This document shows positions 5,949-50,523 of a stretch of DNA of 64,000 bases, one piece after another. Origin of the DNA: Paenibacillus kribbensis (lineage in GTDB: Bacteria; Bacillota; Bacilli; Paenibacillales; Paenibacillaceae). The stretch covers positions 1,156,001 to 1,220,000 of the forward strand of contig NZ_CP020028.1 of assembly GCF_002240415.1 (NCBI RefSeq), read 5' to 3'. Made by a program: the position numbers and the translations under genes. Each line of letters opens with the position of its first letter. Position 1 is the first letter of the stretch. The notes under the pieces are model-generated. The model saw only the letters and a program-made list of their open reading frames with translations. It was not told the DNA's origin and did no database searches.

Positions 5949-6227
5949 ATGCAAAGCCGAGTGATTGAAATGATCAGCGCGGTCAAGGAAGATCCTGAAC
6001 TGGTCGCTAAGCTGGATGGACATTCGGACATTATTCATGATGCTGGACTGGATTCGCTGCAGTTGGTTCATTTCATGCTGCAAGTGGAGGATGCGTTTGA
6101 TGTGGAAATTGATTTTGATTCCTTTGAGCTGGAACATTTGCGTTCGGTAGATGCTTTTTGCAGCTACATACAGGGGATCAGCGAGGCGGAACAAGTGCCA
6201 CACCCGGAGGGAATAAAGACGGTCTAA
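5949..6227 (+). CDS. Acyl carrier protein 1 of the biosynthetic cluster
   Basis: A 92-residue carrier protein with the phosphopantetheine site GLDSLQL (Ser36) followed by the acidic helix QVEDAFDVEIDFDSF. AAGGAGG at 5936-5942 precedes the ATG. As first gene of the cluster, next to a radical SAM enzyme and an ATP-grasp ligase, it probably carries an aminoacyl or acyl intermediate as a thioester, as BtrI does in butirosin synthesis (established for that system; inference here). It is not the fatty-acid ACP, whose gene normally sits with fab genes. A phosphopantetheinyl transferase must come from elsewhere, since none is in the window. Confidence 0.88.
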   Translation: MQSRVIEMISAVKEDPELVAKLDGHSDIIHDAGLDSLQLVHFMLQVEDAFDVEIDFDSFELEHLRSVDAFCSYIQGISEAEQVPHPEGIKTV

Positions 6228-6284
6228 GAGGCGGCTTTGGCTTAGGAACACTTTGCCTGAAAATCCATTAAACGAGGTGTTAGC

Positions 6285-7478
6285 ATGCAGCCCAAAAGCA
6301 ATGTGCTGATTGATGAGAAGGCGTTCAAGCTCATCAAGCGTAACCTGAAAAACGCTTCCGTGTCTTATCGTAACGCAACCCAGGACCCTGCTTTCAAAAC
6401 GGACATGCCCCAGACGATCGGCATTAAGCTGACGAACCGCTGCAACTTGAGATGTACACACTGCTTTGAATGGAACGAGGAAGGCTATCATCATCAAATG
6501 GATAAAGAAGAGCAAAACATGGATCTCGCCCCGGACATGCTTCGGCAAATTTTGAGCGAGACCAAGGAAGCCAAATCCCGGCTATACATGTGGGGCGGTG
6601 AACCGATGTTTCACCGGCGCTTTGACGAAATTTTGGACGTGCTGGCGGAAGATCGGCGCGAAATGACATTTTGTACGAATGGATTACTAATTGACAAATA
6701 TTTGGACCGGATTTTGGATTTATCTGAAAATCTGGAGCTGTTAATAGCGATTGAAGGCTTTGAAAGAGAACATGATCTGATTCGCGGTAAAGGCACCTTT
6801 CAAAAAACGATGCGGCAGATGGATAAGCTGATTGAACTGCGTGACCAGGGATTGTACAAAGGACGGGTAACCGTCCATGCGGTCATTAACGACAACATGA
6901 TCGGACGAATGTACGAATTTCTGCAAATGCTGGAGGACAAAAGGCTGGATCTGGTGCTGCTGACATTCCCCTGGTACATTTCCAAAGAAACCTCCCTCAA
7001 AATGGATGAATATTTTACACGTAACTTCTCTTGGCTCAGGCAGCTTGAAGAAAATAATATCAGTAGCTGGCATGCTTTCAAATATAAAATCAACCCGGAT
7101 AATATCGACCCTCTGATGCAGGAGCTGCAGCGGATCAATGAGCGGGTGTGGAACATCCGTGTGCGCTATCAGCCCGGTTTGGATTATGAGGAGATTGACA
7201 AATTTATACATGGCGAGGAAATGGTCAGCCGCTGCTCCAATCAATGCCTGGCTCTCACCTCCAGAACGGATATTTTGCCGGATGGGAAGGTTATGCCGTG
7301 CAAATTTTTCAGCGAGTTCACGATTGGAAGCTTGCGTGAGCAGAGTCTGGAGGAGATATGGAATTCGGATGCGTATGAGAAGACCCGTCAAAAGATTAAT
7401 CACGAGGGCTTGACGCCCGTATGCTCCAAATGCAGCGTCTTATACCTGCATGGAGCGGGCTCTTTGAAATATATATAG
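6285..7478 (+). CDS. Radical SAM protein with SPASM-type C-terminal cysteines
   Basis: A 397-residue radical SAM enzyme. The CxxxCxxC cluster motif is CNLRCTHC (Cys53, 57, 60), followed by WGGEPMFH (the GGEP SAM-binding motif). The C-terminal third carries Cys residues in RCSNQC, MPCKFF and VCSKCS and the segment IGSLREQSLEEIWNSD, which mark a SPASM/twitch domain holding auxiliary Fe-S clusters. Such enzymes modify peptides or small substrates, for example by epimerisation, C-C or C-S bond formation or alcohol oxidation (BtrN-like). No precursor peptide lies nearby; the flanking carrier gene suggests a carrier-bound or sugar-like substrate (inference). The 57-base gap after ACP1 contains no terminator. 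Confidence 0.85.
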   Translation: MQPKSNVLIDEKAFKLIKRNLKNASVSYRNATQDPAFKTDMPQTIGIKLTNRCNLRCTHCFEWNEEGYHHQMDKEEQNMDLAPDMLRQILSETKEAKSRLYMWGGEPMFHRRFDEILDVLAEDRREMTFCTNGLLIDKYLDRILDLSENLELLIAIEGFEREHDLIRGKGTFQKTMRQMDKLIELRDQGLYKGRVTVHAVINDNMIGRMYEFLQMLEDKRLDLVLLTFPWYISKETSLKMDEYFTRNFSWLRQLEENNISSWHAFKYKINPDNIDPLMQELQRINERVWNIRVRYQPGLDYEEIDKFIHGEEMVSRCSNQCLALTSRTDILPDGKVMPCKFFSEFTIGSLREQSLEEIWNSDAYEKTRQKINHEGLTPVCSKCSVLYLHGAGSLKYI

Positions 7479-7528
7479 TGTCCTGTGAATGTTGTTTGTT
7501 ACGGGATGGAAGAGAGGGATGACAGGAC

Positions 7529-8905
7529 GTGACGACGAAAACGATCAATCTTGTGGAAGCGCTTGCTCATGAACGAGATCATGGTGTACTGATTTGGTTG
7601 TTCAATATCGGCGCAGAGCAGGTATGGCATCCGTCCCCCCGCAAGGGGGGGATGGTGGATCGGGATGAACAGCAGGTTGTAAACCGGATGGAGGAAATGA
7701 ATCTCCTGCTGTGTCGAAGTCAGGATATCATTGTACTTCGCGAAAAGCCGGATGAGGCTTTTCTGGACATGCTTCAGCGGTTGGGCTTTAGCCTGCCGCG
7801 TATTGAGGTGCCGGAGCCTTCTGACCCGCTAACGCCGATTTCAGAGCTGGTGCTGGCGGACAAGGCGCTTTTGGCGCGACTGCGCGCGGTTGCGGACGCA
7901 GGCCACAGCGGGGGTGGAGCCAAAGCGTGGCTCGTTCCGTATGCGGTCACACCGCAGGAGGAAGCGATTGCGGAGTACTGCGGGCTGGAGCTGATTGGGG
8001 CTCCGTCCTCGGTCAGCGCTCAGGTGAATGATAAAATATTCAGTCGCCTGACCGCGCAAAAGCTTGGTTTTGCTGTCAGCGAAGGTGCTGTGTGCGAAGA
8101 CGAAGCGGCGATCCGCAGGGAGTGTGTCAGACTGGCTGAGTTGGCGGACGGGCCTGTGAAGCTGATTATCAAGCAGCCGCATGGTGCCTCGGGACAAGGC
8201 ATGTATATGCTGGACGAGCTGTCCAAGCTGGACACGCTGCTGAGTGTGATGAGACGCTTCGGCGGCTCGTCGCCATCCTCCGGCGGTTGGCTGGTGGAGC
8301 GCTGGCACAACAAACAGATGGATCTGAACTATCAGCTCTGTATCGACGAGAGCGGCGGTGTGACGATGTTTTCGCTAAAAAGGCAAAACGTGGACGGCAC
8401 CGTATATATCGGGTCTCAGGTTCCGGCTGATATTGGCCCTGCACTGGAGGAAGAAGTGAGACGCTGCGCCTATCAACTGGGAACCTATCTGTATTCCATC
8501 GGATATACAGGTATGGCCTCCATTGACGGTTTTGTGGATGAAGGCGGATTGCTGGTTCCGGTGATCGAGATTAATGGCAGATTCACTCTGTCTACTTACA
8601 TCTCGTTCCTGTCCTCTGTCTTGGGAGAGCAGCATAAGACATTGTCCCGTTACTATCGCAATGTTACCGCTTCACCCCTCACCTATAGCCGCTTGTGCGA
8701 GTTACTCGCGGAGGAGGGCTTGCTCTATACACCAGAGCGTCCTCAAGGGGTGTTTGTTTATACGGCGGGCACGCTATCGGATATTTCTGTAAAACGGGGC
8801 TATGTGAACCGAATATTCACACTTATTTTGGCAGACAGCTGGCAGGAAGCAGAAGCTTATGCGCACAAGTTGGAAGGGATCATCGCTGGATTGGGATGCT
8901 TATAA
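7529..8905 (+). CDS. ATP-grasp carboxylate-amine/thiol ligase 1
   Basis: A 458-residue ATP-grasp protein with GTG start. The ATP-binding loop KQPHGASGQGM lies near residue 214 and the Mg-binding VIEINGRFTLSTYISF near residue 345. It resembles the family that includes peptide ligases and BtrJ, the ligase that loads glutamate onto carrier BtrI. Its position directly before ACP2 (17 bases) suggests it loads an amino acid onto a carrier as a thioester or extends a carrier-bound amino acid as an amide (inference). It is distantly related to the second ATP-grasp protein in the cluster (13040-14584). Substrate cannot be read from sequence. Confidence 0.8.
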   Translation: MTTKTINLVEALAHERDHGVLIWLFNIGAEQVWHPSPRKGGMVDRDEQQVVNRMEEMNLLLCRSQDIIVLREKPDEAFLDMLQRLGFSLPRIEVPEPSDPLTPISELVLADKALLARLRAVADAGHSGGGAKAWLVPYAVTPQEEAIAEYCGLELIGAPSSVSAQVNDKIFSRLTAQKLGFAVSEGAVCEDEAAIRRECVRLAELADGPVKLIIKQPHGASGQGMYMLDELSKLDTLLSVMRRFGGSSPSSGGWLVERWHNKQMDLNYQLCIDESGGVTMFSLKRQNVDGTVYIGSQVPADIGPALEEEVRRCAYQLGTYLYSIGYTGMASIDGFVDEGGLLVPVIEINGRFTLSTYISFLSSVLGEQHKTLSRYYRNVTASPLTYSRLCELLAEEGLLYTPERPQGVFVYTAGTLSDISVKRGYVNRIFTLILADSWQEAEAYAHKLEGIIAGLGCL

Positions 8906-8922
8906 TTCGGGAGGAATTCAAG

Positions 8923-9168
8923 ATGAAAACAGATGTATACCATGTAGTACCCTTGCTGGAAAAGGTATTAAAACTGGCTCCGGGCGAGCTTGAACAGTTG
9001 GCTCCTGATCAGGACCTGCGAACCTTGGGGCTGAATTCTCTATCTGCTGTTGAATTGATTGTGGAGCTGGAAAATGAGCTTGATATTACGATGGAGGACG
9101 ACGATCTGGTGCTGGAGCATCTATCTACACTGCAAGGCATTGAACGTCTGCTGGGCAAATATGCATAA
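8923..9168 (+). CDS. Acyl carrier protein 2 of the biosynthetic cluster
   Basis: An 81-residue carrier protein starting at ATG 8923 after GGGAGGAA. The attachment motif is GLNSLSAVEL (Ser39), with Asn in place of the usual Asp before the serine, then ELENELDITMEDDDL. The stop overlaps or lies near the start of the BtrH-like gene, so the two are probably coupled. It is clearly a different carrier from ACP1, implying two loading events or two pools. Confidence 0.88.
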   Translation: MKTDVYHVVPLLEKVLKLAPGELEQLAPDQDLRTLGLNSLSAVELIVELENELDITMEDDDLVLEHLSTLQGIERLLGKYA

Positions 9169-9205
9169 GGGCGCGGAGAAGACCAGACCTGTGCAGGAAT
9201 CTGGC

Positions 9206-10291
9206 ATGGATAGTCGTCATGATTCCATTGTTGATCACGCTGTTGAAGAAGTAGCCAACGCTCTTCCGGGGAAACATTGTGTATATTCATCTCTGCGCAC
9301 GTCATTGCGACGCTATGGGGTGAACATGGCAGAATCCGAGCTGTTCATGCTGTGTGGAAGCATGTGCGCGGAGTATAGCGGAGATTTGAAGCGCTTCGGA
9401 CCTGAGAAATATCCGGAACAGCTGCAAGAAATGGCAGCCAGCGGCGGACCTGTGATTCAGGTGGAGCCGTGGATCGCTGGCGTAAGCGATGAAACCGACC
9501 TGCTGCGAGTGCTCACGTCAGGCTACGGTACGATGCTGCATACGTCAAGCACGGCCTTAACTTATCACGATGTGTATGTGAAAAATTACCCAAGGGGTCA
9601 TGTGATTGAGCTGTGCGGATTGGATCTGGGGGAGCGGACGGCACAGGTAAATGATAGCTTCCTGCTGGATTCCTCGGGACAGGCTATGACTTATGTGGGA
9701 CCGGCCCGTCTCGATGATTTGATGCAGGGGATTATTGAATATGCATGGCTGGTGGAGCAGCCTGTCCGGCTTTCGCCAGGCGAGCTGCATGCTGCGTGTG
9801 CATACCATATTCGTCAGTATGTGACCGGGCACGAAGCGGTCTGGAGAGGCGTGTCTACACCAGATGAGTCGGCAAATCAGACTGGAAAGGCTGCAACAGG
9901 CAAGCAGGTCAAGCGGGGGGATGCGGGGTACCGGGCATTTGTCGACGATTTCCGCTTGTTGGCAGATATGGAGGATCAGGATTTTCGGACGTACTGCCAT
10001 GAAATCTATTACAATCTGCGATTGGGCAGTGCCCTTCATCTGACGGATTACACCGCTGATTATTGCCTACGGCATCAAGCTACGCTGGGATCGCAGGCAC
10101 AGCATGTGATTGAATTGGCCCAATCGTTGTACGCAGATTGGCACAAGCTCAATCTGTATATTTACAAAACAGGCCTCCAGCTGCGCAAGCAGCGGATACC
10201 TGAGATTAGGGAACGCGCTCTGAGCCTGATTGAAAGACAGCGGTATATGCTGGAGAATTTAATGGTTTTAACGGAGCAGGCAGCCGATTAG
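9206..10291 (+). CDS. BtrH-like acyltransferase (C39-fold N-terminal domain)
   Basis: A protein of about 361 residues. The N-terminal half fits the butirosin BtrH_N family, which has a papain/C39-like fold: candidate nucleophile Cys25 in KHCVYSSL, His in RGHVIELCG (about residue 131) and Asp in VNDSFLLD (about residue 149). BtrH is known to transfer the carrier-bound gamma-glutamyl-aminobutyryl group from BtrI to an aminoglycoside amine. The neighbouring carrier genes support the same role here: moving a carrier-bound acyl group to an acceptor. The C-terminal half is helical. Start is uncertain: ATG 9206 has AGGA seven bases before it, while ATG 9161 and GTG 9191 are in frame and would overlap or abut ACP2. 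Confidence 0.75.
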   Translation: MDSRHDSIVDHAVEEVANALPGKHCVYSSLRTSLRRYGVNMAESELFMLCGSMCAEYSGDLKRFGPEKYPEQLQEMAASGGPVIQVEPWIAGVSDETDLLRVLTSGYGTMLHTSSTALTYHDVYVKNYPRGHVIELCGLDLGERTAQVNDSFLLDSSGQAMTYVGPARLDDLMQGIIEYAWLVEQPVRLSPGELHAACAYHIRQYVTGHEAVWRGVSTPDESANQTGKAATGKQVKRGDAGYRAFVDDFRLLADMEDQDFRTYCHEIYYNLRLGSALHLTDYTADYCLRHQATLGSQAQHVIELAQSLYADWHKLNLYIYKTGLQLRKQRIPEIRERALSLIERQRYMLENLMVLTEQAAD

Positions 10292-10384
10292 TTCAGGTTG
10301 AGCGTTCGGCTAAATCGTTTGGGCCAGTCGGATCAGGCACGTTCACCAAGGTGTCACGGACAGAGGAAAGAGGAGGGGAATTCA

Positions 10385-11377
10385 TTGCCGTCCATTACAT
10401 TGAATCAATTGTCGAAAACGTTTACGTACTACAAAAAGGAGCCGGGCGTGCGCAAATCGTTACAAAACCTGTTCAGGCGGGAAAAGCTGACCAAGAAGGC
10501 CGTGCAAAATGTCAGCTTCAGTATTGAGGAAGGGGAAATTGTCGGGTTTCTCGGTCCGAACGGGGCGGGCAAAACAACGACGCTCAAAATGCTGTCCGGT
10601 ATTCTCCATCCCAGTGAGGGGGAAGCATCGGTACTCGGTTTTACCCCGTGGAAGCGACAAAAAGAGTTTAAACGCCAGTTTTCCATCGTGATGGGACAGA
10701 AAAACCAACTCTGGTGGGATTTGCCTGCAAGTGAGTCGTTCGAGCTGAACAAGCTTATTTACGAAATAGATGAAAGACGTTATAAGGAGGCGCTGGACGA
10801 GCTGGTCACCCTGCTAGGTGTGGAGGAGCAGCTTCATGTACAGGTGCGGCGGCTATCTCTAGGCGAGCGTATGAAAATGGAGCTGATCGCCGCGTTGCTG
10901 CATCGTCCACGGGTTATTTTACTGGACGAGCCGACGATCGGACTGGATCTTGTTTCCCAGCGGCGGATTCGTGAGTTTTTCAAAGCCTATAACCGCGCGC
11001 ACCGGACGACCATCCTGCTGACAAGCCATTACATGAAGGATATTGAGGATCTATGCAGCAGATCCATCATTATTAGCGGTGGCCAGTTGGTTTATGACGG
11101 AGATTTGCACAAGGTGAACGAGGTCATCGGTGCTCGAAAACTGCTCAAGGTCCGGCTGGAGACTCCCGTGCCTAACCTGACGCTGGCGGGACTCGGCAAG
11201 CTGCGCTCTGGCTCCGAGCTGGAGGCGGTATTTGAGCTGGATGCAGAAGATACTCTGACCTGGTCCAAAAAGATTTTGGACGCACTGCCTGTCGTTGATT
11301 TTACGATTGAGGATGTCCCGCTGGAAGAGGGGATAGCCAATTTGTACGATGGGGGCAGGCTGGCTGATGCGAACTAA
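10385..11377 (+). CDS. ABC-2 exporter ATP-binding protein
   Basis: A 330-residue ATPase. Walker A is GPNGAGKTT (near residue 57), the signature is LSLGERMKME, Walker B is VILLDEP, followed by the TSHYMKDIEDLC switch region. The TTG start at 10385 follows GAGGAGGGG; the in-frame extension to 10298 lacks a ribosome binding site. It belongs to the DrrA/NodI-like type that pairs with ABC-2 permeases, and the two permease genes follow directly (11-base overlap, then a one-base gap). Role: powering export of the cluster product or its precursor, or self-protection (inference). Confidence 0.92.
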   Translation: MPSITLNQLSKTFTYYKKEPGVRKSLQNLFRREKLTKKAVQNVSFSIEEGEIVGFLGPNGAGKTTTLKMLSGILHPSEGEASVLGFTPWKRQKEFKRQFSIVMGQKNQLWWDLPASESFELNKLIYEIDERRYKEALDELVTLLGVEEQLHVQVRRLSLGERMKMELIAALLHRPRVILLDEPTIGLDLVSQRRIREFFKAYNRAHRTTILLTSHYMKDIEDLCSRSIIISGGQLVYDGDLHKVNEVIGARKLLKVRLETPVPNLTLAGLGKLRSGSELEAVFELDAEDTLTWSKKILDALPVVDFTIEDVPLEEGIANLYDGGRLADAN

Positions 11378-12173
11378 CAAATATGTGAAAGTGCTCCAGC
11401 TTGGCATGCAAAACGAGATGGAATACCGGGCCAATTATTGGCTGCAGATGGCGGGATTTATGCTGCCGATCATGACGCAAATTTTTCTCTGGCTTGCGGT
11501 ATTCGGCTCTTCGGGACAGGCAAGAGTGCTGGGCTATTCTCTGCCGGAAATGCTGGTTTATGTCGTTATGGCGGGCGTGACCGGAAAACTGATTGCCACG
11601 GGCTTTGAATATGAAATTGCTACAGATATCAAGGAAGGCGGATTGGCCAAATTCATGGTGCAGCCTGTGCATTATTTTGCTTACCGTTTTTGCCGATTTA
11701 TCGGTGGCAAAGCGGTACAATCCGCAGTCGTACTGCTGGCGGCTGTTATTTTGCTGCTATGTCTCAGTCTGGACGGACATATCGGCTTCGAGCTGTCGCA
11801 TATTCTGCTTTACATATTGGCGTTGCCGGGAGCGCTTGTGCTCAATTTTGTGGTCTATTACGCGCTGAGCGGCATAGCCTTTTGGGTGACGGAATCGGCG
11901 GGATTATTTTATACGCTGTCGCTTGTCATTTACGTAGCTAGCGGTACCGTGTTCCCGCTGACGATTTTTGGAGATGCTTTGGCCCGTCTGTTCAGCTTGC
12001 TGCCGTTCAGCTACACCGTATTTTTTCCGGTGAACGCGCTAACGGGTAAGCTGACTGTGTTGGAAGCCGCCAAAGGCATTGGCGTACAATGGCTCTGGAT
12101 TGCAGTGCTGGCGGCCGTATCACGCTGGGTGTGGCAAGCCGGGCTCAAACGCTTTGTCTCGGTAGGAGGCTAA
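11367..12173 (+). CDS. ABC-2 type exporter permease 1
   Basis: A 268-residue integral membrane protein with about six hydrophobic segments (for example MLPIMTQIFLWLAVFG and AVVLLAAVILLLCLSL). It is of the ABC-2 class seen in pairs with drug-type exporters. ATG 11367 overlaps the end of the ATPase gene by 11 bases; ATG 11349 is an in-frame alternative. The segment MQNEMEYRANYW near the start is mirrored in the second permease (MSQMEYRINFI), so the two permeases are paralogous and probably form a heterodimer. Confidence 0.88.
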   Translation: MRTNKYVKVLQLGMQNEMEYRANYWLQMAGFMLPIMTQIFLWLAVFGSSGQARVLGYSLPEMLVYVVMAGVTGKLIATGFEYEIATDIKEGGLAKFMVQPVHYFAYRFCRFIGGKAVQSAVVLLAAVILLLCLSLDGHIGFELSHILLYILALPGALVLNFVVYYALSGIAFWVTESAGLFYTLSLVIYVASGTVFPLTIFGDALARLFSLLPFSYTVFFPVNALTGKLTVLEAAKGIGVQWLWIAVLAAVSRWVWQAGLKRFVSVGG

Positions 12174-12174
12174 C

Positions 12175-12987
12175 ATGAAAAATGTTTTCCGAAACGTTGG
12201 GCGTTATTTTAGGCTGTACTGGAAGTTCGTCCAGTTTTCCGTCATGTCGCAGATGGAATACCGCATTAATTTTATTACTGCGTTTCTGGTTGAAACGGCT
12301 TATTTGCTCATCAAGCTGCTGTACGCTTCGGTTCCATACCGGGCCGGGACGGACATTAACGGCTGGACTCCCGATGCGGTGCTGCTATATATCGGCGTAT
12401 TTACGATGATGAGCGGATTTTACAGCGGCTTGTTCTACAGTAATTTTACAAGTCTGCCTGACAAAATCCGGACCGGCTCCCTGGATGTGCTTATCACCAA
12501 GCCGGTGTCGCTGCAATTTATGGTGACCCTGCGTCAATTTGAGCTGGGCTACACCGTGCCGAATGTAGTAGGCGGCGGAATCATGACGGGCATTGGCTGG
12601 GTTCGACTCGGGCTGCCATTTGATTTGGAAACCGTGGGCGGCTTCGCTGTGCTGCTCGGATGCGGGGTGCTTACGGCCTATTCCGTGTTTTTGCTGCCAC
12701 AATTGCTGGCCTTCTGGATTATCCGCACGAATGGCGTAACGGAGCTGTCCAACAGCATTTTCGAGACAAACTATGTGCCGATGGCCGTGTATAGCAACCT
12801 GATTCAGCGTATTGGCTTGTTCGTGCTTCCGGTGTTTGTCATTTGTAACTTTCCACCCATGTTTATTCTCGGCAAAATGGATACCGGTTTGATTGTATGG
12901 GCATTTCTCGCACCTCTCTGGCTGCTGGCGATCATCCGTTTGATATGGCAGTTTGCGCTGCGAGATTATACGAGTGCAAGCCAGTAG
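12175..12987 (+). CDS. ABC-2 type exporter permease 2
   Basis: A 270-residue membrane protein with about six hydrophobic segments, paralogous to the preceding permease. The ATG at 12175 lies one base after the previous stop, with GGAGG inside the previous gene's end. The cytoplasmic SLPDKIRTGSLDVLITKP segment matches the conserved loop of this permease class. Likely partner of permease 1 and the ATPase in one exporter. Confidence 0.88.
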   Translation: MKNVFRNVGRYFRLYWKFVQFSVMSQMEYRINFITAFLVETAYLLIKLLYASVPYRAGTDINGWTPDAVLLYIGVFTMMSGFYSGLFYSNFTSLPDKIRTGSLDVLITKPVSLQFMVTLRQFELGYTVPNVVGGGIMTGIGWVRLGLPFDLETVGGFAVLLGCGVLTAYSVFLLPQLLAFWIIRTNGVTELSNSIFETNYVPMAVYSNLIQRIGLFVLPVFVICNFPPMFILGKMDTGLIVWAFLAPLWLLAIIRLIWQFALRDYTSASQ

Positions 12988-13039
12988 CGTAGGCTAGTCA
13001 TAGTAGGCTAATAACGAAGCAAGAAAGGAAGCGAATGAC

Positions 13040-14584
13040 ATGAATGCGATACCGAGCCAGCGTCATTTGTATATGGGAACGTTCGAAGCGGAGGCATACT
13101 GGCGGGACACCAAGTTGGCTTCCCTGCCCGCTCTGCCTGACCGGGCATCTTCAGCGATTGTAGCAGCGATGGATGAACTACTGTTCAGCTTTTGTCAGCC
13201 GGGAGATGCATTATTGACCCGTTATGCGATTTCGCCCGTGCATCGTCAGTATATCGCAGAGCTGGGCTTTCATCCGGCTGTCAATGAACGGGATTTGACG
13301 AATGGAATGGAGCAAGCTGGCGGCAACGTATCAGCGGCTTCTGTTTTTGAGCTGCTGGGCAGCCGTAAGGCCGATACCGGAGAGGGCTTCCCTCAGCTGG
13401 AGGGCTGTGTGCTCAGCCCGTTTGCGGGCTTGCCATATGTGGAAGAGGCCGCTCAGGCTTGGGGAATCACATTGCACCAGCCGCCGCTGGAGACGATTCG
13501 CAAAGTCAATGCCAAAACCTATTCCTCTGATCTCAAACGCAGTCTCGGCCTGCGCAATCCGGGCCATATCGTGACTTCGTTTGCGGATGTAGCTGAGGCG
13601 GGGCGCAAGCTGCTGCGGGATGGAAGCTTTTTAATCAAGGATGATTTTGGCGTATCGGGCAAAGGAAACCTGCACATTACTTCGACACAAATGCTGGACC
13701 GGATCGTATCGTATTTGCGTGGACAGGAGCGCAAAGGCAAACAGGTGCTATTCATTCTGGAGCCTTTTTTGGAAAAAGAGCAGGATTTTTCATGCCAATT
13801 TTTGATTGGTGATGATGGGAGGGTGGATATCCTATCCGTGCAATGGCTGGCCAACACTCAATTTGCCTATCGGGAATCTTTGTCGCCGGACGAGGCTTTT
13901 ATGGAACGGCTGGAGCGCGAGGGTTATTTTAGCTTAATGCAGGACGTGGGACGGCAGCTGTATCAGGATGGATATTACGGTGATGTTTGCATTGACTCCA
14001 TGACACTCCGTGGCGGAAAGCTGGAGCCGATTATCGAAATTAACGCCCGCAAGTCGATGAGTTTGATCAAGCATCAGCTCGATAATTTTCTCGCCACGAA
14101 AAACATGCGTGGCACGCTGACGAATTATTCACTGTCCCATGACGGCAGTCTGTCTTATGAGGAACTGCTGGAAGGGCTGAAATGTGAAGGACTGCTGTTC
14201 ACAGGAGAACGTGAGGAAGGCATAATGCCGCTGGGCGCCAATACGTTATATGTGAACACAGGTGGACGGGATGGAGAAAACAGGATTGAAGGCCATACAA
14301 GCATATCAAGCACAACAAGCAGCAATGCAACCGTGCGCGAGGGCAGATCATCTGCCAAGCAGGTTCGCGTGAGTGGGATGAGCAGCGGTGATCGCGGATC
14401 AGAAGGGAATGGCATGGCCAAGCCGGACTTAAGTGGTAAAAAAGAAGCTGCCGGAAGCGAACAGACCCGAGGAAAGGGGCGTCTTTATTTGGAACTGGTT
14501 GCTGCGGGGGACGAAGACAAAATGCGTTTGACTACAAAGCTGGAGCGTTTTTTGGCGGAGCATCATTTTACAGTGCTGAATTAA
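13040..14584 (+). CDS. ATP-grasp ligase 2, with low-complexity insert
   Basis: A 514-residue ATP-grasp protein. The ATP loop IKDDFGVSGKGN lies near residue 200 and the metal-binding IIEINARKSMSLIKHQ near residue 335. It is a distant relative of ligase 1, with the same C-terminal ending type (GEREEGIMPLG compared with PERPQGVFVYT). Between about 14250 and 14480 is a Ser/Gly/Arg-rich stretch (SISSTTSSNATVREGRS and following) that looks disordered and is absent from ligase 1. It starts 52 bases after the permease gene with AAAGGAAG upstream. Likely couples an amine or thiol to a carboxylate on or toward a carrier protein (inference). Confidence 0.78.
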   Translation: MNAIPSQRHLYMGTFEAEAYWRDTKLASLPALPDRASSAIVAAMDELLFSFCQPGDALLTRYAISPVHRQYIAELGFHPAVNERDLTNGMEQAGGNVSAASVFELLGSRKADTGEGFPQLEGCVLSPFAGLPYVEEAAQAWGITLHQPPLETIRKVNAKTYSSDLKRSLGLRNPGHIVTSFADVAEAGRKLLRDGSFLIKDDFGVSGKGNLHITSTQMLDRIVSYLRGQERKGKQVLFILEPFLEKEQDFSCQFLIGDDGRVDILSVQWLANTQFAYRESLSPDEAFMERLEREGYFSLMQDVGRQLYQDGYYGDVCIDSMTLRGGKLEPIIEINARKSMSLIKHQLDNFLATKNMRGTLTNYSLSHDGSLSYEELLEGLKCEGLLFTGEREEGIMPLGANTLYVNTGGRDGENRIEGHTSISSTTSSNATVREGRSSAKQVRVSGMSSGDRGSEGNGMAKPDLSGKKEAAGSEQTRGKGRLYLELVAAGDEDKMRLTTKLERFLAEHHFTVLN

Positions 14585-14595
14585 ACGGGAGGCGT

Positions 14596-15762
14596 ATGAG
14601 CATGCGTACAAGTATAGAACAGCAGACGAAGATAACGATTTTGTGTTCCGGTTTCGGACTGGGCTTTTATACCCCTGGCTTGTTGCTGCAAGCGGGTTTT
14701 CGCAGACTTGGCTTCGATACGGCAATTCATGTGTTTGAAAATGTGCTGCCGGAATCGGCCCGTCTCCAGGTCGACAAAAGCCGCAAAGCTTATCACGACA
14801 ATTTTGCCGTAGCCTTAATGTCACAGAAGGTGCCGCAGGATATGCGCAATTCATTGGACCCTGCTGCAATGGAAGTACTGCTGAACCAATGGATGGCAGA
14901 GGATCGGCGGTATTTTATATGCTTATCCGGTCATTGGATGTATGTGCTGGAGGAGTATCGCAAACGAAGAAATCCGGAGTCGGTGCAGGTGGACATCGTG
15001 TATATGGATTCGACACCTTCCCCTTCCTGGAAAAATCTAGCCAAGCATAACCCGCATTTTGCTGATGGTTGTGTAGAAACGACTTTATTTGAAAATGAGA
15101 AGAATAGAGTCAGCCATTATATTGATATTCCGGCTGTTGAGTATGTTTCGTTTGAAGAGCGGCAATCCCGCTTATTCGTACATGGCGGCGGCTGGGGCAT
15201 GGGCACATACCGTGACAAGGTTGGACAGCTGGAAGAGGCGGGCTGGGAGCTGGATTTGCTGTTGTATGATCAGGATCAACCGGATGAACAACGGGACCGT
15301 ATACGCTATTTTCGGATGGACCCGCAGTGGAGAACATGGCAGCGAAATGAAGCTGGAAAGCATACGTTTCCACCTTTCGGAGAGGTAAAACCGGGCGAGG
15401 AGACAGTGTATCGGGTTGGGCCGGATTACCATAGCTTGCTGGACCGAACATGCCATGTCCAAGCCATTGTCAGTAAACCCGGTGGAGGCAGCATGACCGA
15501 TTCTTTCGCTACAGCTACTCCGCTTATTATGCTGGAGCCGTTTGGTGTGCATGAGAAGCATAATGCGGATCTGTGGGAACGTCTGGGACTAGGTATGCGC
15601 TATGAGACGTGGATGGAAACCTATGGCGGCAGTGCTGAGGTATTGGAAAATATGCATCGGAGGATCGTGGAGCTGCGCAGTCAGACGCCGCGCTATGTGG
15701 AGTCGTATGTGAATAGCATTCGAATGCAGGCGAGTACATCGGGAATGGAGAAAGGGTCATGA
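14596..15762 (+). CDS. GT-B-fold glycosyltransferase-like protein
   Basis: A 388-residue protein with the look of a UDP-glycosyltransferase/MurG-type GT-B enzyme. The N-terminal ILCSGFGLGFYTPGLLL resembles a glycine-rich acceptor loop. The C-terminal part has AIVSKPGGGSMTD (about residue 293) and LIMLEPFGVHEKHNA, corresponding to the nucleotide-sugar-binding motif of GT1/GT28 proteins. GGGAGGCG precedes ATG 14596 (MRTS at 14602 is an alternative). Its stop overlaps the next gene's start as ATGA. In the cluster it may attach a sugar to the scaffold. Family placement is by motif only. Confidence 0.6.
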   Translation: MSMRTSIEQQTKITILCSGFGLGFYTPGLLLQAGFRRLGFDTAIHVFENVLPESARLQVDKSRKAYHDNFAVALMSQKVPQDMRNSLDPAAMEVLLNQWMAEDRRYFICLSGHWMYVLEEYRKRRNPESVQVDIVYMDSTPSPSWKNLAKHNPHFADGCVETTLFENEKNRVSHYIDIPAVEYVSFEERQSRLFVHGGGWGMGTYRDKVGQLEEAGWELDLLLYDQDQPDEQRDRIRYFRMDPQWRTWQRNEAGKHTFPPFGEVKPGEETVYRVGPDYHSLLDRTCHVQAIVSKPGGGSMTDSFATATPLIMLEPFGVHEKHNADLWERLGLGMRYETWMETYGGSAEVLENMHRRIVELRSQTPRYVESYVNSIRMQASTSGMEKGS

Positions 15763-16898
15763 ACCTCGCCGCTGCTGCACATGAACCTGCGGTAGGAGAT
15801 ATCCGCTTTGGAATCATCGGCTGTTCTGCCATTGCGCCACGTGCATTGCTGGAGCCGACCCAGCACGTTGCGGGGGCTCGTGTGACCGCGCTCGCGAATC
15901 GTACGGTTGCCAAGGCGGAAGAAATGGCAGAGCGTTTTGGGGTCAGTGTCGTTTATCGGCATGCCGAGGATCTGCTGAAGGACCCGGAGATCGACGCTGT
16001 ATATATTGCACTTAGCAACGACCTGCATGCCGAGTGGATTGGCAAAGCACTGCAGGCTCACAAGCACGTGCTGGTGGAAAAGCCGTTGTGCCTGAATACG
16101 GCGGATCTGATTCCCTTGGCCGCGACTGTTGAGCAGAGCAGTGCTTACCTGCTGGAGGGAGTCATGGTGATGCATCATCCCTGGCAGCGTGAGCTGCGAA
16201 GGATCGTGGAATCTGGTTGCTATGGTCGTTTACGCTCCATAGCAACGAGTCTGTGCATTCCCGCCAGAGACGGGCATGCGAACAATTACAGATCCCGGCC
16301 GGAGCAGGGCGGGGGATGCTTTTGGGATTTGGGCGTGTACTGGCTTCAGCTGCTTCAGGCCGTCGTTGGATTAGAGCAGGCGGAATTCCGCAGCCAATCG
16401 GATTTCGACGGACCCCATGGCTGTGACTGGACATTTCACGCACAGGCCCGTTATCCGGGCGGCTTGGAGGCGTCAGCTCTCTTTTCATTCGAGCGGCCTT
16501 ATCGCTGCGCTCATGTACTGACCTTTGATTCGGCGGTTGTCACCTTGCAGGACTGTTTTCGGGCAAATCTGGGTTTTTATAAAATGACACTCAAGACGGA
16601 AATGACGGAAATAGTACAGGACATCACGCCGAATATAACGGCTACGGCTGTATTGACGGAGGGATCATCGCATCAGTTGGCATCCCATTTTCACTCACAA
16701 TTTCAGCCACAGCCACAATCCAAAATGAAAACTGTTTTCGAGCCTATGAACTATTATGTCAATCAGCTGGAAGCCTTCTGCAGCATCATCCGGGGGGAAG
16801 CGGAGCCGATTCCGTTCCGTGAGGCCGCTGAGCGAGTCAGACTGCTGGCAGCCATTCATGAGGCAGCACGTTCGGGCGAGACGATCTATGCAGTATGA
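15759..16898 (+). CDS. Gfo/Idh/MocA-family oxidoreductase
   Basis: A 379-residue NAD(P)-dependent dehydrogenase. The N-terminal Rossmann fold begins FGIIGCSAIAPRALL, and the family signature EKPLCLN lies near residue 107, followed by GGGCFWDLGVYW, typical of the C-terminal alpha/beta domain with its active-site residues. Such enzymes oxidise or reduce sugar and inositol hydroxyls. It overlaps the glycosyltransferase-like gene by four bases. In this cluster it is the best candidate for making a keto- or amino-sugar acceptor (inference), although no aminotransferase is present in the window. Confidence 0.88.
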   Translation: MNLAAAAHEPAVGDIRFGIIGCSAIAPRALLEPTQHVAGARVTALANRTVAKAEEMAERFGVSVVYRHAEDLLKDPEIDAVYIALSNDLHAEWIGKALQAHKHVLVEKPLCLNTADLIPLAATVEQSSAYLLEGVMVMHHPWQRELRRIVESGCYGRLRSIATSLCIPARDGHANNYRSRPEQGGGCFWDLGVYWLQLLQAVVGLEQAEFRSQSDFDGPHGCDWTFHAQARYPGGLEASALFSFERPYRCAHVLTFDSAVVTLQDCFRANLGFYKMTLKTEMTEIVQDITPNITATAVLTEGSSHQLASHFHSQFQPQPQSKMKTVFEPMNYYVNQLEAFCSIIRGEAEPIPFREAAERVRLLAAIHEAARSGETIYAV

Positions 16899-16950
16899 GT
16901 ATGTGCAACATGCTGAGGATAGAAAAGCGAAAAGAGGGGGATTTCAGCAG

Positions 16951-18351
16951 ATGGTTGAAAAGGACGAGTCCTTGCTGGAGCGTTTTGGTAATCATCCGAC
17001 ACCATTTTACTATTATGACGGAGACGCAATGTCAGCTCATGTCAGCTCGCTGTTGGCCCGGTTGCACCCGGCTGTGCGTATACATTACGCGCTTAAGGCT
17101 AACGGCAACGTAGCCTTGGCGGGATTGCTGCGCTCGTTGGGCTGCGGCGTTGAGATCGCTTCGGCCGGGGAATTGTTCGTCGCCATGGAGGCAGGATATG
17201 CCGCGGAAGACGTGCTGTACGCCGGACCGGGAAAAACAGCAGCCGAGCTGAGCGAGGCGGTAGCCTGCGGAATCGGTTGCATTCATGTCGAATCGGTGCG
17301 GGAGCTGCGTCTACTGGAGGACATTGCTGCGCGAGCGGGCTTATTTGTCAGGGCTGCGGTTCGTATCAATCCCGATAACGATCTGTCGGGGGCGACGATT
17401 AAAATGGGCGGTGTTCCCCGTCCCTTTGGTGTCGATGAAGGGCAGCTGGATCACTTTTTTGAGACGCTGGAAGAATGCCCACATGTTTATTTTCAAGGCA
17501 TCCAGGTATATACAGGCACGCAAATGCTAAAAGCGGATCAGATTCTGGCTTCGTTTGCAAACACGCTGCAGTTGGCGGAACGGGTACAGGCCCGGTATGG
17601 TGTTGCCATGCATACGGTAAATTTGGGCGGAGGGTTTGGTGTCCCTTATTTTGCTCATGAGCAGCCATTGGATATGGAGCAAGTCATCGACGGACTGAAC
17701 GCGCTCGCCGAGCAGACCCGATCCCGTATGCCGGGAGTTACGCTAATTATCGAAAGCGGCAGGTATCTGGTCGCTCAAGCAGGTAGGTATGTTTGCCGGG
17801 CATTGTATACCAAGGAGTCCAAGGGAGAGAAGTTTGTGGTGGCTGATGGCGGCATGAATCATTATGTCTCGGCTACCTTTCGGGGCCGCCGTCTTCGGGA
17901 CAACTACCCGGTGCGAATTATGCGCAGGCAGGTGACGGAACAGGAAGTACGGGAAATGGGAGCTAATATGCGCATGGGGCAGCAAAATGCTCCTATTCAG
18001 GAGGACATTGCTGTTGAACTGCCAGGAGAGGTTGCAAACCGGATAGAGGAGCATTCGACAGAAGCATCGCTGGAGCTGGAAACCGTAAGCATTGTTGGCC
18101 CGCTCTGTACACCCGAGGATTGTATGGTGAAAAAAGCACAGCTTCCCCCGATTCAGGAGGGCGACTATATCGTCTTTCCAAACGCGGGGGCTTATGGACT
18201 AAGCTATAGTCCAGTGCATTTTCTGGGACATGCTACCCCGGCAGAGCTGCTCGATTTTCGCGGGGAGGTGCATGTGATTCGTGAACACGGTGACCGCACG
18301 GATTTGCTGCATCATCAGCGCATGATTCCGTTGCCCGAGGATGCGCTGTAA
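16951..18351 (+). CDS. BtrK-like PLP-dependent decarboxylase (fold-type III)
   Basis: A 466-residue alanine-racemase-fold decarboxylase. The PLP lysine is in HYALKAN (Lys49), with VNLGGGFGVPYF near residue 225, ESGRYLVAQAG, and the active-site cysteine motif GPLCTPEDC near residue 383. From memory, the pattern matches BtrK, which decarboxylates gamma-glutamyl bound to carrier BtrI, better than diaminopimelate decarboxylase LysA, and no lysine genes are nearby. A segment of about 45 residues before GPLCTPEDC (17930-18080) looks inserted. AGAGGGGG precedes ATG 16951; upstream in-frame starts lie inside the Gfo/Idh gene. Probable role: decarboxylation of a carrier-bound amino acid (inference). 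Confidence 0.85.
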   Translation: MVEKDESLLERFGNHPTPFYYYDGDAMSAHVSSLLARLHPAVRIHYALKANGNVALAGLLRSLGCGVEIASAGELFVAMEAGYAAEDVLYAGPGKTAAELSEAVACGIGCIHVESVRELRLLEDIAARAGLFVRAAVRINPDNDLSGATIKMGGVPRPFGVDEGQLDHFFETLEECPHVYFQGIQVYTGTQMLKADQILASFANTLQLAERVQARYGVAMHTVNLGGGFGVPYFAHEQPLDMEQVIDGLNALAEQTRSRMPGVTLIIESGRYLVAQAGRYVCRALYTKESKGEKFVVADGGMNHYVSATFRGRRLRDNYPVRIMRRQVTEQEVREMGANMRMGQQNAPIQEDIAVELPGEVANRIEEHSTEASLELETVSIVGPLCTPEDCMVKKAQLPPIQEGDYIVFPNAGAYGLSYSPVHFLGHATPAELLDFRGEVHVIREHGDRTDLLHHQRMIPLPEDAL

Positions 18352-18391
18352 CCAAAGATGAACTGTAACCAAAGTTGTGCTGTAAATATGC

Positions 18392-18447
18392 AAAAACGCC
18401 AAAATCATCGGAGTCGATACACACTGACCCCGTGTTTTGGCGTTTTA
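18392..18447. terminator. Terminator closing the biosynthetic cluster, shared with efeU
   Basis: Arms AAAACGCCAAAA and TTTTGGCGTTTT about 30 bases apart, with T-rich tails on both strands, between the convergent decarboxylase and efeU genes. Confidence 0.75.
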
Positions 18448-18470
18448 TATTATGAACAATGTGGATTGGA

Positions 18471-25422: not shown

Positions 25423-25456
25423 GGTATATTCTTGATTGGAGGTGAACAGGCGACAT

Positions 25457-25939
25457 ATGACACCCAACCAACACTTGATGACTTATACGCTAAACAGCGG
25501 CATAAAGGGAACTGTCGACCTATCCAGTAAGCAGGTTCAGGAATGGATCAAAGCATATCGAATTGGCAGCAAGTTTGTAACGGTAGTAGGCAAACAGTAT
25601 TTTGGTTTAAACCCTGAGCTGGTAGCAGATTTTAAGGTACATAATGAATACTCGGAGCAGAGAGAGCACATATCCATGATACAGCCTGTGATAGAACGCA
25701 AGGCTATAGATGTGGATCCGCTGGCAGATGCATATAATCAGCATAAAACGTTAATTCAGGTTGAATGTAAATGTGGAGCTTCCTATATAGAGGAGTCCCC
25801 GCACAAAAGAACAAAGTGGTCCTGCAAGGAATGCAATAATATTGTATTTCTGGATCGTAAAAAGGGCATGGTGGATACGGAAAAAGGCAAGGCGTGGTAT
25901 ATGACAAACAGGTACTATGTGGAAAGACAAAGCAACTGA
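25457..25939 (+). CDS. Zinc-ribbon protein, first of a tandem pair
   Basis: A 160-residue protein of unknown function. The N-terminal half (MTYTLNSGIKGTVDLS ... GKQYFGLNPELVADFKVHN) is shared with its neighbour. The C-terminal half has a CKCG(x)nCKEC zinc ribbon (SYIEESPHKRTKW between the cysteine pairs) ending FLDRKKGMVDTEKGKAWYMTN. ATG 25457 lies 12 bases after GGAGGTG; TTG 25436 and GTG 25442 are in-frame alternatives. The gene ends inside its own terminator. The tandem copy at 26076 argues for recent duplication. A nucleic-acid or RNA-polymerase-related role is possible from the ribbon but not shown. Confidence 0.72.
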   Translation: MTPNQHLMTYTLNSGIKGTVDLSSKQVQEWIKAYRIGSKFVTVVGKQYFGLNPELVADFKVHNEYSEQREHISMIQPVIERKAIDVDPLADAYNQHKTLIQVECKCGASYIEESPHKRTKWSCKECNNIVFLDRKKGMVDTEKGKAWYMTNRYYVERQSN

Positions 25940-26075: not shown

Positions 26076-26567
26076 ATGTACGGACATAGACAAGATGATA
26101 CTTTATACATCATGACTTACACACTAAATAGCGGTATCAAGGGCACAGTACCTTTGTCTAATCAGCAGATACAGGAATGGCTTGAGTGTTACAGAATCGG
26201 CAAAAAATTTGTAACCGAGATTGGCAAAGAGTACTTTGGATTGCATGCGGAACTGGTGGCAGATTTTAAAGTGCATAATCAGTATTCAAGCTATCAGGAG
26301 GTCATTATCCCGATTCAACAGCCGGATACTGGCTTAAAAGAGTTGTCCCAGGCTTACAAATCAACAGAAACCTTGATTAAAGTAGATTGTAAATGTGGTA
26401 CATCGTATGTGACGGAATCCCCCATTAAGCGGACCAAGTGGTACTGCACCAAATGCCGGGAGATTGTCTTTCTTGACAGTAAAAAGGGAATGGTTGACAC
26501 ATCCAGAGGCAAGGCTCATTATATGACTAATAAGTATTTTGTGGAACGGGAAACAACTGGCGTGTAA
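26076..26567 (+). CDS. Zinc-ribbon protein, second of a tandem pair
   Basis: A 163-residue paralog of the preceding gene, more than half identical by eye: MTYTLNSGIKGTVPLS, GKEYFGLHAELVADFKVHN, CKCG(x)nCTKC ribbon and VFLDSKKGMVDTSRGKAHYM. ATG 26076 follows AAGGAGGC. It has its own promoter (TTGATG at 26021, 17-base spacer, TACATT at 26044) and its own terminator overlapping the stop, so the two paralogs are separate transcription units, not an operon. The linker between the two halves differs most, suggesting the conserved halves carry function. Confidence 0.75.
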   Translation: MYGHRQDDTLYIMTYTLNSGIKGTVPLSNQQIQEWLECYRIGKKFVTEIGKEYFGLHAELVADFKVHNQYSSYQEVIIPIQQPDTGLKELSQAYKSTETLIKVDCKCGTSYVTESPIKRTKWYCTKCREIVFLDSKKGMVDTSRGKAHYMTNKYFVERETTGV

Positions 26568-50000: not shown

Positions 50001-50523
50001 GATAGCAACGAAGAGTCACAATTTAGAATCACCCAAATTCGTGAGAAAACTGGTAAAATCAACGAGTACTACACTCACATGGAAAAAGGTTGTAAATGCT
50101 GACACCTATGAATTGTTACGAGACGGAAAAAGCATTTATAAAGGGAAACTTACATGGTTCACAGATAAGCGATTAACCCCTTCAAAGACGTACACGTATA
50201 CATTGGTAGCTTGGAGCCGAAATGACAGCAGTCAGTCATCTGTTATTCTCGTAACAAATCCGAACAGTCCGGATAAAATAAAAACCAAAGACATCACTGC
50301 TTCAAAGATTAAGGTAGTTTGGACAGCGAATGGAAACTCAAATGAAACCGAGTACCGTGTTACAACGAACAATGGTTATGACAGTGGATGGATAACCGAT
50401 TTGGAACATACGCTAACCAATCTATCTGCAAACAAGCGCTATAAGATTTCTATTACTGCAAGAAACAAGGCAGGCGTAGTATCAAACAGCGGAACCATTA
50501 AAACGAAGACAAAGAAGAAATGA
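47086..50523 (+). CDS. Large secreted protein: LamG-like domain plus ten fibronectin type III modules
   Basis: An 1145-residue exported protein. The signal peptide (NAFLALIMFLGIILPIFIPT) ends near LVRAA. Residues about 50-245 form a LamG/concanavalin-like domain (TVEFWTYWNGTNFV, WVHVAAVF, LAEVRIWNYARTAEDI). About ten FN3 modules follow, each with a YELKRDG(x)nY(S/T)G core and TYTLVAKN strand; four are separated by PT-rich linkers (PADPTPTDP). The last ends in lysines, with no LPXTG or S-layer anchor visible. AAGGAAAA precedes the ATG. Likely surface adhesion or polysaccharide binding (inference). The linker near 49200 reads QSRRHPSP where others read TTPAPATP, a local frame slip that is restored. 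Confidence 0.85.
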   Translation: MKCNKIANAFLALIMFLGIILPIFIPTSLVRAADGVLDPATTNTFTPVEPINFITTDGSDDTIKIINLPVNTTPGAKTTVEFWTYWNGTNFVKPFGWYIYNLYFANGYFGFNQADGSVLGIPSAELKNKWVHVAAVFTNGVPTADTNELYINGEKQSISLFLTQQTESKSVTPMAVISGWGHDSKYKFAGKLAEVRIWNYARTAEDIQSDMNRSLSGDEAGLIGAWNPDSLTTGIVYDVTKRNNGVATGFAAPLFNLQITEKTDQKMVLTWDKIANAETYVLKRNNSILYQGADSTFTDTGLSPFTDYTYTLIARNSNGETNEAKIIDKTNKSVLPTPANIATTATNSSITLDWDDVAGATTYELKRDGVSIYSGSESQLTDNTGLAAATTYTYTLVAKSSVGESSPASVQVKTADPAPATPANLTGTATTTGIKLSWNAADNAESYELKRDGQEVYTGSDLTYTDTGLTSSTNYTYTLVAKNGSGESSPASVQVKTADPMPADPTPTDPTPTTPAPATPATPTNLTGTATATSIMLSWNAADSAESYELQRDGQVVYTGSELTYTDSGLTASTSYTYTLVAKNGTGESSPASLQVKTADPMPADPTPTDPMPTDPTPTTPAPATPATPTGTATTTSIKLSWNAADNAESYELKRDGQVVYSGNDLTYTDTGLTASTSYTYTLVAKNGTGESSPVSVQVKTADPAPQSRRHPSPATPTNLTGTATTTSIKLSWNAADNAENYELKRDGQLVYSGNELTYTDTGLTSSTSYTYTLVAKNGTRESSPASVQVKTADPAPTTPSTTPSPSIPVRPLPTAPINFVGTSNERSILLIWAPVVQAMSYELKRDGVIIYSGVDTSFNDIGLERSTTYVYSLVAKNNAGESAPQVIQIATKSHNLESPKFVRKLVKSTNVTLTWKKVVNADTYELLRDGKSIYKGKLTWFTDKRLTPSKTYTYTLVAKNNAGESVPQVIQIATKSHNLESPKFVRKLVKSTSTTLTWKKVVNADTYELLRDGKSIYKGKLTWFTDKRLTPSKTYTYTLVAWSRNDSSQSSVILVTNPNSPDKIKTKDITASKIKVVWTANGNSNETEYRVTTNNGYDSGWITDLEHTLTNLSANKRYKISITARNKAGVVSNSGTIKTKTKKK
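48325..49480 (+). repeat. Near-identical FN3-coding DNA repeats
   Basis: Four modules share long runs such as CTCAGCTGGAATGCAGCAGA and ACGTACACATTGGTAGCC, recurring about every 300 bases at roughly 48370, 48670, 48975 and 49255. The high DNA identity points to recent duplication and ongoing recombination. Confidence 0.85.
49762..50259 (+). repeat. 249-bp tandem duplication at the FN3 gene 3' part
   Basis: The unit beginning AAGAGTCAYAATTTAGAATC at 49762 repeats at 50011, nearly identical over one full 83-residue module (SPKFVRKLVKST, then NADTYELLRDGKSIYKGKL). Composition is more AT-rich than the middle modules, so the protein is a mosaic of two repeat types. Confidence 0.9.

Follow-up and report, generated by a model that had tools for sequence, protein, structure and literature searches.

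A putative twelve-gene operon of Paenibacillus kribbensis pairing a widespread carrier-protein core with a butirosin-type aminoacylation cassette

The window analysed here is a stretch of 64,000 nucleotides from Paenibacillus kribbensis (NZ_CP020028.1, positions 1,156,001 to 1,220,000), in which twelve open reading frames (ORFs) follow one another on the plus strand between positions 5949 and 18351. According to the ORF calls on the window, they form a putative single operon, with intergenic distances of 57, 50 and 17 bases, followed by one overlap, ahead of the ATP-binding cassette (ABC) transporter genes; this bears out a sequence-only reading of the same DNA, which had reported twelve genes on one strand with gaps of at most 57 bases in this part. 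A divergent gene lies upstream, separated from the operon start by a region of 353 bases. The operon is made up of two modules with a two-module history, a core and a cassette equivalent to the butirosin genes btrI, btrJ, btrK and btrH, and its features are listed below (ACP, acyl carrier protein; SAM, S-adenosylmethionine; PLP, pyridoxal phosphate).

5949..6227, + strand: ACP1, carrier protein of the core (Ser36); PP-binding 33.8 bits; in 40/40 core neighbourhoods
6285..7478, + strand: twitch-type radical SAM enzyme (one auxiliary cluster), core; Radical_SAM 68.8 bits, SPASM 57.4 bits
7529..8905, + strand: ATP-grasp 1, predicted BtrJ counterpart, cassette; PreAtp-grasp and PGM1_C matches; groups with BtrJ of reference locus L213
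8923..9168, + strand: ACP2, predicted BtrI counterpart, cassette (Ser39); PP-binding 48 bits
9161..10291, + strand: predicted BtrH_N-like papain-fold acyltransferase (Cys39, His146, Asp164), cassette; BtrH_N 22.3 bits, below the cut-off
10385..11377, + strand: ATPase of an ABC exporter, DrrA-like; ABC_tran 96.3 bits; best NCBIfam model DrrA, below the DrrA cut-off
11349..12173, + strand: putative ABC-2 type permease 1; ORF named by position and conservation beside the ATPase (31/40)
12175..12987, + strand: putative ABC-2 type permease 2; ORF named by position and conservation beside the ATPase (31/40)
13040..14584, + strand: ATP-grasp 2, core, predicted charger of ACP1; family profile matches PDB 8ynd; clade of its own
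14596..15762, + strand: glycosyltransferase with MurG/UgtP-like C-terminal half, core; family profile matches 9wde
15759..16898, + strand: Gfo/Idh/MocA-type NAD(P)-dependent dehydrogenase, core; GFO_IDH_MocA 90 bits; in 30/40 core neighbourhoods
16951..18351, + strand: predicted BtrK-type PLP decarboxylase, cassette; PDB BtrK 408 bits; in a clade with BtrK
18384..18452, + strand: terminator-like hairpin after the last gene; -24.9 kcal/mol, z -5.65, 0/200 shuffles equally stable

Two alternative starts are available to the BtrH_N-like gene, ATG 9161 and ATG 9206, the latter being the choice of the sequence-only reading, and TTG 10385 is the probable start of the ABC ATPase gene. The operon is considered more than a chance assembly because the same twelve families are found clustered in other genomes as well (with synteny in related ones), because all twelve genes show dN/dS values of 0.01-0.21 against four relatives, indicating purifying selection, and because the terminator-like hairpin follows the last gene. 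Non-ribosomal peptide synthetase (NRPS) and polyketide synthase (PKS) genes were looked for among the twelve genes only and are missing there, as had been remarked from the sequence.

Relatives of ATP-grasp 2 were detected in 160 of 394 Paenibacillaceae genomes (132 of them at 1e-50 or better, by our own count of rows), and 40 gene neighbourhoods, 17 from the genus and 23 others, were read besides that of the window. ACP1, the radical SAM enzyme and the glycosyltransferase adjoin ATP-grasp 2 in all 40 (in L054 as fragments), Gfo/Idh does so in 30 plus one doubtful case, and the ABC trio in 31. ATP-grasp 1 accompanied by the decarboxylase was met in 20 neighbourhoods, one of these decarboxylases being cut at a contig end, and the BtrH_N-like protein in 24. 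A search of other genomes for the gene set, as the sequence-only reading had proposed, thus finds the twelve families together elsewhere: L198 and L071/L197 hold all of them in a changed order, with the core followed by decarboxylase, ATP-grasp 1, ACP2 and BtrH_N-like protein. In L219 and L220 the cassette likewise comes after the core, a complete ABC trio being absent from the stretch read, the cassette occurs without a core in L221, and L119 has it (decarboxylase, ATP-grasp 1, ACP2, BtrH_N-like protein) with another core. Only ACP1, radical SAM enzyme, BtrH_N-like protein, ATP-grasp 2, glycosyltransferase and Gfo/Idh are present in L067-L070, whose genomes are not among the 61 of the 394 with a BtrK match at 1e-60. 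Mapped onto the tree of ATP-grasp 2, the distribution of the cassette takes four changes or more, which fits a part repeatedly joined to, or lost from, the core.

The sequence-only reading had seen doubled butirosin-type carrier chemistry in this cluster and had entertained a carrier-bound dipeptide. This does not hold, since in many genomes ATP-grasp 2 and ACP1 accompany the glycosyltransferase and the radical SAM enzyme with no decarboxylase present, and ATP-grasp 2 falls into a separate clade; a second Btr set is thereby refuted, and a carrier-bound dipeptide is no longer required. Judged from sequence comparison, the two carrier/ATP-grasp pairs are not copies of one chemistry.

For the comparison with butirosin, PDB BtrK and a butirosin-type gene cluster were used. 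With PDB BtrK as query against the 394 family genomes, a relative of 63% identity was found in genome G371 (locus L213, G371:C1:5530500-5550000), where an ATP-grasp protein and a carrier adjoin the decarboxylase. This locus also contains an AroB-related enzyme that does not reach the cut-off for aroB, a GGACT protein, a luciferase-type monooxygenase and a BtrH_N protein above the cut-off, as well as a PIG-L deacetylase and an aminotransferase, both identified by eye only. Owing to this gene set, L213 was treated as the butirosin-type reference. The same genome carries a match to the ATP-grasp 2 core elsewhere.

Based on sequence, ATP-grasp 1, ACP2 and the protein at 9161-10291 are assigned as counterparts of BtrJ, BtrI and BtrH_N. 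That both ATP-grasp proteins noted in the sequence-only reading are genuine is supported by Pfam matches (PreAtp-grasp, PGM1_C) for ATP-grasp 1 and by the family profile for ATP-grasp 2. The profile of ATP-grasp 1 matches BtrJ-type proteins with an E value of 4.3e-54, and scores against L213 are 130 bits for ATP-grasp 1 versus 58 bits for ATP-grasp 2. In an ATP-grasp tree of 55 rows, which had been labelled beforehand by best BLAST match so that only the placement of L213 is independent, ATP-grasp 1 forms a clade with L213 BtrJ (L213-L216, support 99/97); ATP-grasp 2 constitutes a clade of its own (100/100) and does not share that of BtrJ. The two carriers likewise agree with what had been read from the letters: both exceed the Pfam PP-binding cut-off of 20.8 bits, and Ser36 of ACP1 and Ser39 of ACP2 are invariant in 46/46 and 35/35 aligned sequences, respectively, the window sequence included. 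Towards L213 BtrI, ACP2 scores 54 bits at 40% identity, and ACP1 gives no match. Both carriers weakly match NCBIfam DltC models.

The assignment as BtrH_N-like protein with a Cys/His/Asp triad stands in part. Cys39, His146 and Asp164 are invariant in all 30 aligned members and align with Cys32, His143 and Asp161 of L213 BtrH, and the family profile matches four BtrH-type proteins with a probability of 83% and an E value of 8.4e-06, triad on triad. Both relatives scanned, L119 and L197, pass the BtrH_N cut-off with 45.8 and 37.3 bits; the window protein, also as called from 9206, misses it.

In case of the decarboxylase, the evidence points to a BtrK-type carrier-protein decarboxylase, for which action on an aminoacyl-S-carrier is predicted. 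Against PDB entries, its score is 408 bits for BtrK compared with 159 bits for the best LysA, and identity over aligned columns amounts to 49.2% to BtrK and 32.0% to LysA. It forms a clade with BtrK with a support of 92/96 in a tree including LysA and proteobacterial rows, and of 99/98 in a second tree without LysA, the proteobacterial rows and L146. As to active-site and substrate-loop residues, Lys49 and Cys386, which we take to be the PLP lysine and the catalytic cysteine, are kept in 43/43 aligned sequences, and a CTPED motif is common to this enzyme and BtrK. A LysA/NspC identity is ruled out by NCBIfam and PDB scores together with both trees, in line with the sequence-only reading. Exosortase-A-associated PLP decarboxylases belong to the same superfamily, and their model TIGR03099 is the best NCBIfam match; with 390.6 bits, however, the operon enzyme stays below the cut-off of 478.45 and lies outside the separate clade of the proteobacterial members, so that this identity was rejected too. 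The window decarboxylase has BtrK as its nearest neighbour in the tree, and forcing it together with those of other cassettes was rejected in an approximately unbiased (AU) test (p 0.0148), which had been chosen after inspection of the first tree. ATP-grasp 1, in contrast, is nearest to the ATP-grasps of other cassettes. Read most simply, these discordant trees suggest that a butirosin-type decarboxylase has replaced the former one in this lineage, and such an exchange would account for the location of the gene at the far end of the operon.

Regarding the core, the radical SAM enzyme carries C53, C57, C60, C321, C339, C380 and C383 in all 45 aligned sequences. The twitch-domain motif comprises CX3CX2C plus the auxiliary cysteines CX9-15GX4C and CX2C, and all seven cysteines meet this pattern in each of the 45. 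The C-terminus matches BtrN in the PDB, and the NCBIfam twitch model scores 96.2 bits, below its cut-off of 170. For ATP-grasp 2, no Pfam ATP-grasp match was obtained, but its family profile finds the ATP-grasp peptide ligase PDB 8ynd (3.2e-09) and aligns with BtrJ-type proteins at 2.1e-23. The glycosyltransferase, equally without a Pfam match, was assigned by a family profile match to diacylglycerol glucosyltransferase 9wde (6e-07). Alignments demanded a minimum length of 330 residues for the radical SAM, ATP-grasp and glycosyltransferase families, 380 for the decarboxylase, 280 for the BtrH_N-like and Gfo families and 70 for the carriers; left out were L119 (radical SAM) and L073 (Gfo, and glycosyltransferase, where it has a stop codon). 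A role in defence was also tried with PADLOC: of the four operon proteins submitted, three gave no match, and the radical SAM protein had matches only of a general radical SAM (viperin) kind.

The core extends beyond the family, as two Streptomyces replicons, NZ_CP108509.1 (L225) and NZ_CP134205.1 (L226), contain all five core enzymes together, in one order shared by the two. Identities are 34-35% for the radical SAM enzyme, 31-33% for ATP-grasp 2, 30-34% for Gfo/Idh and 36-37% for the glycosyltransferase, the ACP being present as well. In both, an APH-family kinase, which may act in self-resistance or tailoring, is placed between Gfo/Idh and glycosyltransferase, and a major facilitator superfamily (MFS) gene lies in front. 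NZ_CP108509 holds a compact set of radical SAM enzyme, ACP, ATP-grasp, Gfo/Idh, APH-like kinase and glycosyltransferase, and the second record has a stand-alone condensation domain. Like the operon, the Paenibacillaceae and Streptomyces core clusters have the five core families side by side; most of them lack the decarboxylating cassette, and their neighbours vary. A PIG-L deacetylase (L085), a KASIII-like protein (L086), nucleotide-sugar and luciferase-type genes (L081) and a nucleotidyltransferase (L075) occur near cores, besides the APH-type kinases, and this variety points to a sugar-containing product with varied decoration. The nucleotidyltransferase-domain protein of L075 (14330-15235, relatives in L077 and L084) scores above the NTP_transf_2 cut-off in L075 and, from its sequence, is a possible resistance gene resembling those of aminoglycoside nucleotidyltransferases. 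Locus L119 has a SerRS-like protein and an ACP in the place of ATP-grasp 2 and ACP1; the former is akin to amino acid:[ACP] ligases, although it scores below their cut-offs, and its position beside an ACP fits a charging role for ATP-grasp 2.

Taken together, the most likely product of the operon is an exported molecule that is both glycosylated and aminoacylated and bears an acidic amino acid in decarboxylated form, γ-aminobutyric acid (GABA) or β-alanine. Both carriers would be armed by one of two phosphopantetheinyl transferases, the genes of which were found elsewhere in the genome, so that arming is feasible. In the core, ATP-grasp 2 would charge ACP1 with an amino acid, the glycosyltransferase would join a sugar, and the twitch radical SAM enzyme and the Gfo/Idh dehydrogenase would oxidise or rearrange that sugar. 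In the cassette, ATP-grasp 1 would link an acidic amino acid (probably Glu rather than Asp) via its side-chain carboxyl to ACP2, and the BtrK-type decarboxylase would strip the α-carboxyl to give GABA-S-ACP2 (or β-alanyl-S-ACP2) by analogy to BtrJ/BtrK, the BtrK reaction being stated in PMC7857480. The BtrH_N-like cysteine acyltransferase may then transfer the acyl group, with an amine or hydroxyl of the core product as acceptor (BtrH is described as an ACP:aminoglycoside acyltransferase in PMC10318531), and the DrrA-like ABC transporter would export the product. A two-module secondary-metabolite operon with this full pathway, in which substrates, acceptor, order of steps and product are all predicted, is favoured with somewhat better than even confidence. 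Least certain are the carrier served by the acyltransferase and the substrate of the glycosyltransferase, which may or may not be the carrier-bound amino acid. More tentatively, the core may represent an ancient assembly line of Bacillota and Actinomycetota, in which an amino acid would be glycosylated while bound to a free-standing carrier and the sugar converted into an aminocyclitol or another unusual ring by radical SAM enzyme and dehydrogenase; this would yield a natural-product class needing no NRPS, PKS or inosose synthase, which BtrI-J-K-H-like cassettes decorate.

Butirosin btrI, btrJ, btrK and btrH have counterparts in ACP2, ATP-grasp 1, decarboxylase and BtrH_N-like acyltransferase, the last being only remotely related to BtrH. 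A BtrG-type γ-glutamyl cyclotransferase is missing, the GGACT family giving 0 matches in the genome (and matches in 9/14 genomes used as control), and a BtrO-type luciferase monooxygenase is absent among the twelve genes, to which that search was confined; both absences fit an unprotected, unhydroxylated side chain. The whole genome holds a single DHQ_synthase gene, taken as aroB, which leaves no spare candidate for the 2-deoxy-scyllo-inosose synthase that 2-deoxystreptamine aminoglycoside clusters possess. The sequence-only reading, which had noted the lack of an inosamine-type synthase and proposed that glycosyltransferase, radical SAM and Gfo/Idh enzymes shape a different acceptor, was correct on the former and reasonable in its inference on the latter.

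Among other explanations, glycosylation on the carrier, as proposed for pactamycin, would make the ACP1-bound amino acid the glycosyl acceptor, with the sugar rebuilt on the carrier by the radical SAM and Gfo/Idh enzymes and release by the acyltransferase or a cyclisation. According to PMC13402214, the pactamycin (ptm) cluster likewise includes a discrete ACP together with a glycosyltransferase, a radical SAM enzyme and enzymes that modify sugars; this likeness is one of gene listing, and a polyketide starter and ketosynthase set ptm apart from the operon. No obvious acyltransferase was seen among the ORFs read at the NZ_CP108509 core, making the glycosyltransferase the sole group-transfer enzyme seen there, and a PIG-L deacetylase family gene adjoins the core in L082, L085 and L086. 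However, the condensation domain of the second Streptomyces record could transfer an acyl group, and BtrH_N-like or KASIII-like genes lie near most Paenibacillaceae cores, which renders this route unlikely. A decoration of the cell envelope, by which DltC-like carriers and a UgtP-like glycosyltransferase would yield an aminoacylated glycolipid or wall glycan flipped by the ABC transporter, would account for the best glycosyltransferase match being a diacylglycerol glucosyltransferase, for the weak DltC matches of both carriers and for the broad occurrence of ATP-grasp 2 (132/394 family genomes at 1e-50 or better). It is nevertheless judged quite unlikely: the system is patchy within the genus, with the BtrH_N-like protein in 18/75 genomes, tailoring genes beside the core vary, and an APH-family kinase and MFS exporter stand at the Streptomyces core.

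In butirosin biosynthesis, a dipeptide strategy is followed in which BtrJ adds a protecting amino acid that is later removed. The presence of both ATP-grasps in one operon would be compatible with a similar series on one carrier, the second enzyme adding a removable protecting amino acid; yet ATP-grasp 2 and ACP1 are found in 20/40 core neighbourhoods without ATP-grasp 1 and decarboxylase, and the genome offers no γ-glutamyl cyclotransferase for deprotection, so that we regard this as highly improbable. Hardly credible is a cluster for a ribosomally synthesized and post-translationally modified peptide (RiPP) with a SPASM-type radical SAM maturase. Several RiPP maturases appear among the best NCBIfam matches, all far under their cut-offs, but the auxiliary cysteines fit a twitch domain with one cluster, carriers and ATP-grasp enzymes are conserved with the radical SAM enzyme, and no precursor gene was recognised between the twelve genes among ORFs of at least 60 residues, the length range searched.

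Several points weigh against the two-module pathway favoured here. The glycosyltransferase assignment comes from one weak C-terminal match. The BtrH_N-like window protein stays under the Pfam gathering cut-off of PF14399 (22.3 versus 29.7 bits), finds no match in a PDB search and none by BLAST against L213 BtrH, and its tree has long branches. In the four genomes of L067-L070 this protein is retained although ATP-grasp 1, ACP2 and decarboxylase are lacking, so that ACP1 may be its partner in place of ACP2 or in addition to it. For the decarboxylase, the fuller tree gives a support of only 92/96, the higher value coming from the tree without LysA, proteobacterial rows and L146, and the AU test was a choice made in hindsight; the discordance with ATP-grasp 1 implies that the substrate need not match that of either relative. 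Among the 80 loci listed in a scan of named genomes, mostly proteobacterial decarboxylases, only 5 had an ATP-grasp or other cluster relative. In the class search, seven genomes outside the family match ATP-grasp 2 at 1e-20, and the core was not found in six of the seven when read; pairs of ATP-grasp and decarboxylase occur instead, with a glycosyltransferase in L115 only. Finally, the cluster copy of the genus relative L054 (G008:C41:155500-174500) is missing several internal stretches between flanks that are still colinear; it is decayed or misassembled, and the cluster is dispensable.

The cassette belongs to a known kind, its occurrence and arrangement here being new, and no description of the cluster was found in the open-licence literature searched, so that the possibility of an already characterised cluster, raised in the sequence-only reading, gained no support. 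For the core clusters, we know of no matching system and of no product. If the two-module reading is true, the carrier-protein aminoacylation kit of butirosin would be a portable cassette decorating other cores, and the cores, present in about one third of the Paenibacillaceae genomes searched (132/394) and in Streptomyces, would represent a pathway family. As these core families come without an NRPS or PKS gene, genome mining seeded on such genes would be expected to miss them. According to PMC10318531, the amino-acid side chain of butirosin guards against resistance enzymes, so that new carriers of such chains deserve attention.

Elsewhere in the window, positions 47086-50523 hold an ORF of 1145 residues with repeats of about 250-310 bases, Pro/Thr/Asp-rich linkers and strong AT skew, and two small paralogous ORFs lie adjacent at 25436-25939 and 26076-26567, having the start MTYTLNSGIKGTV in common.

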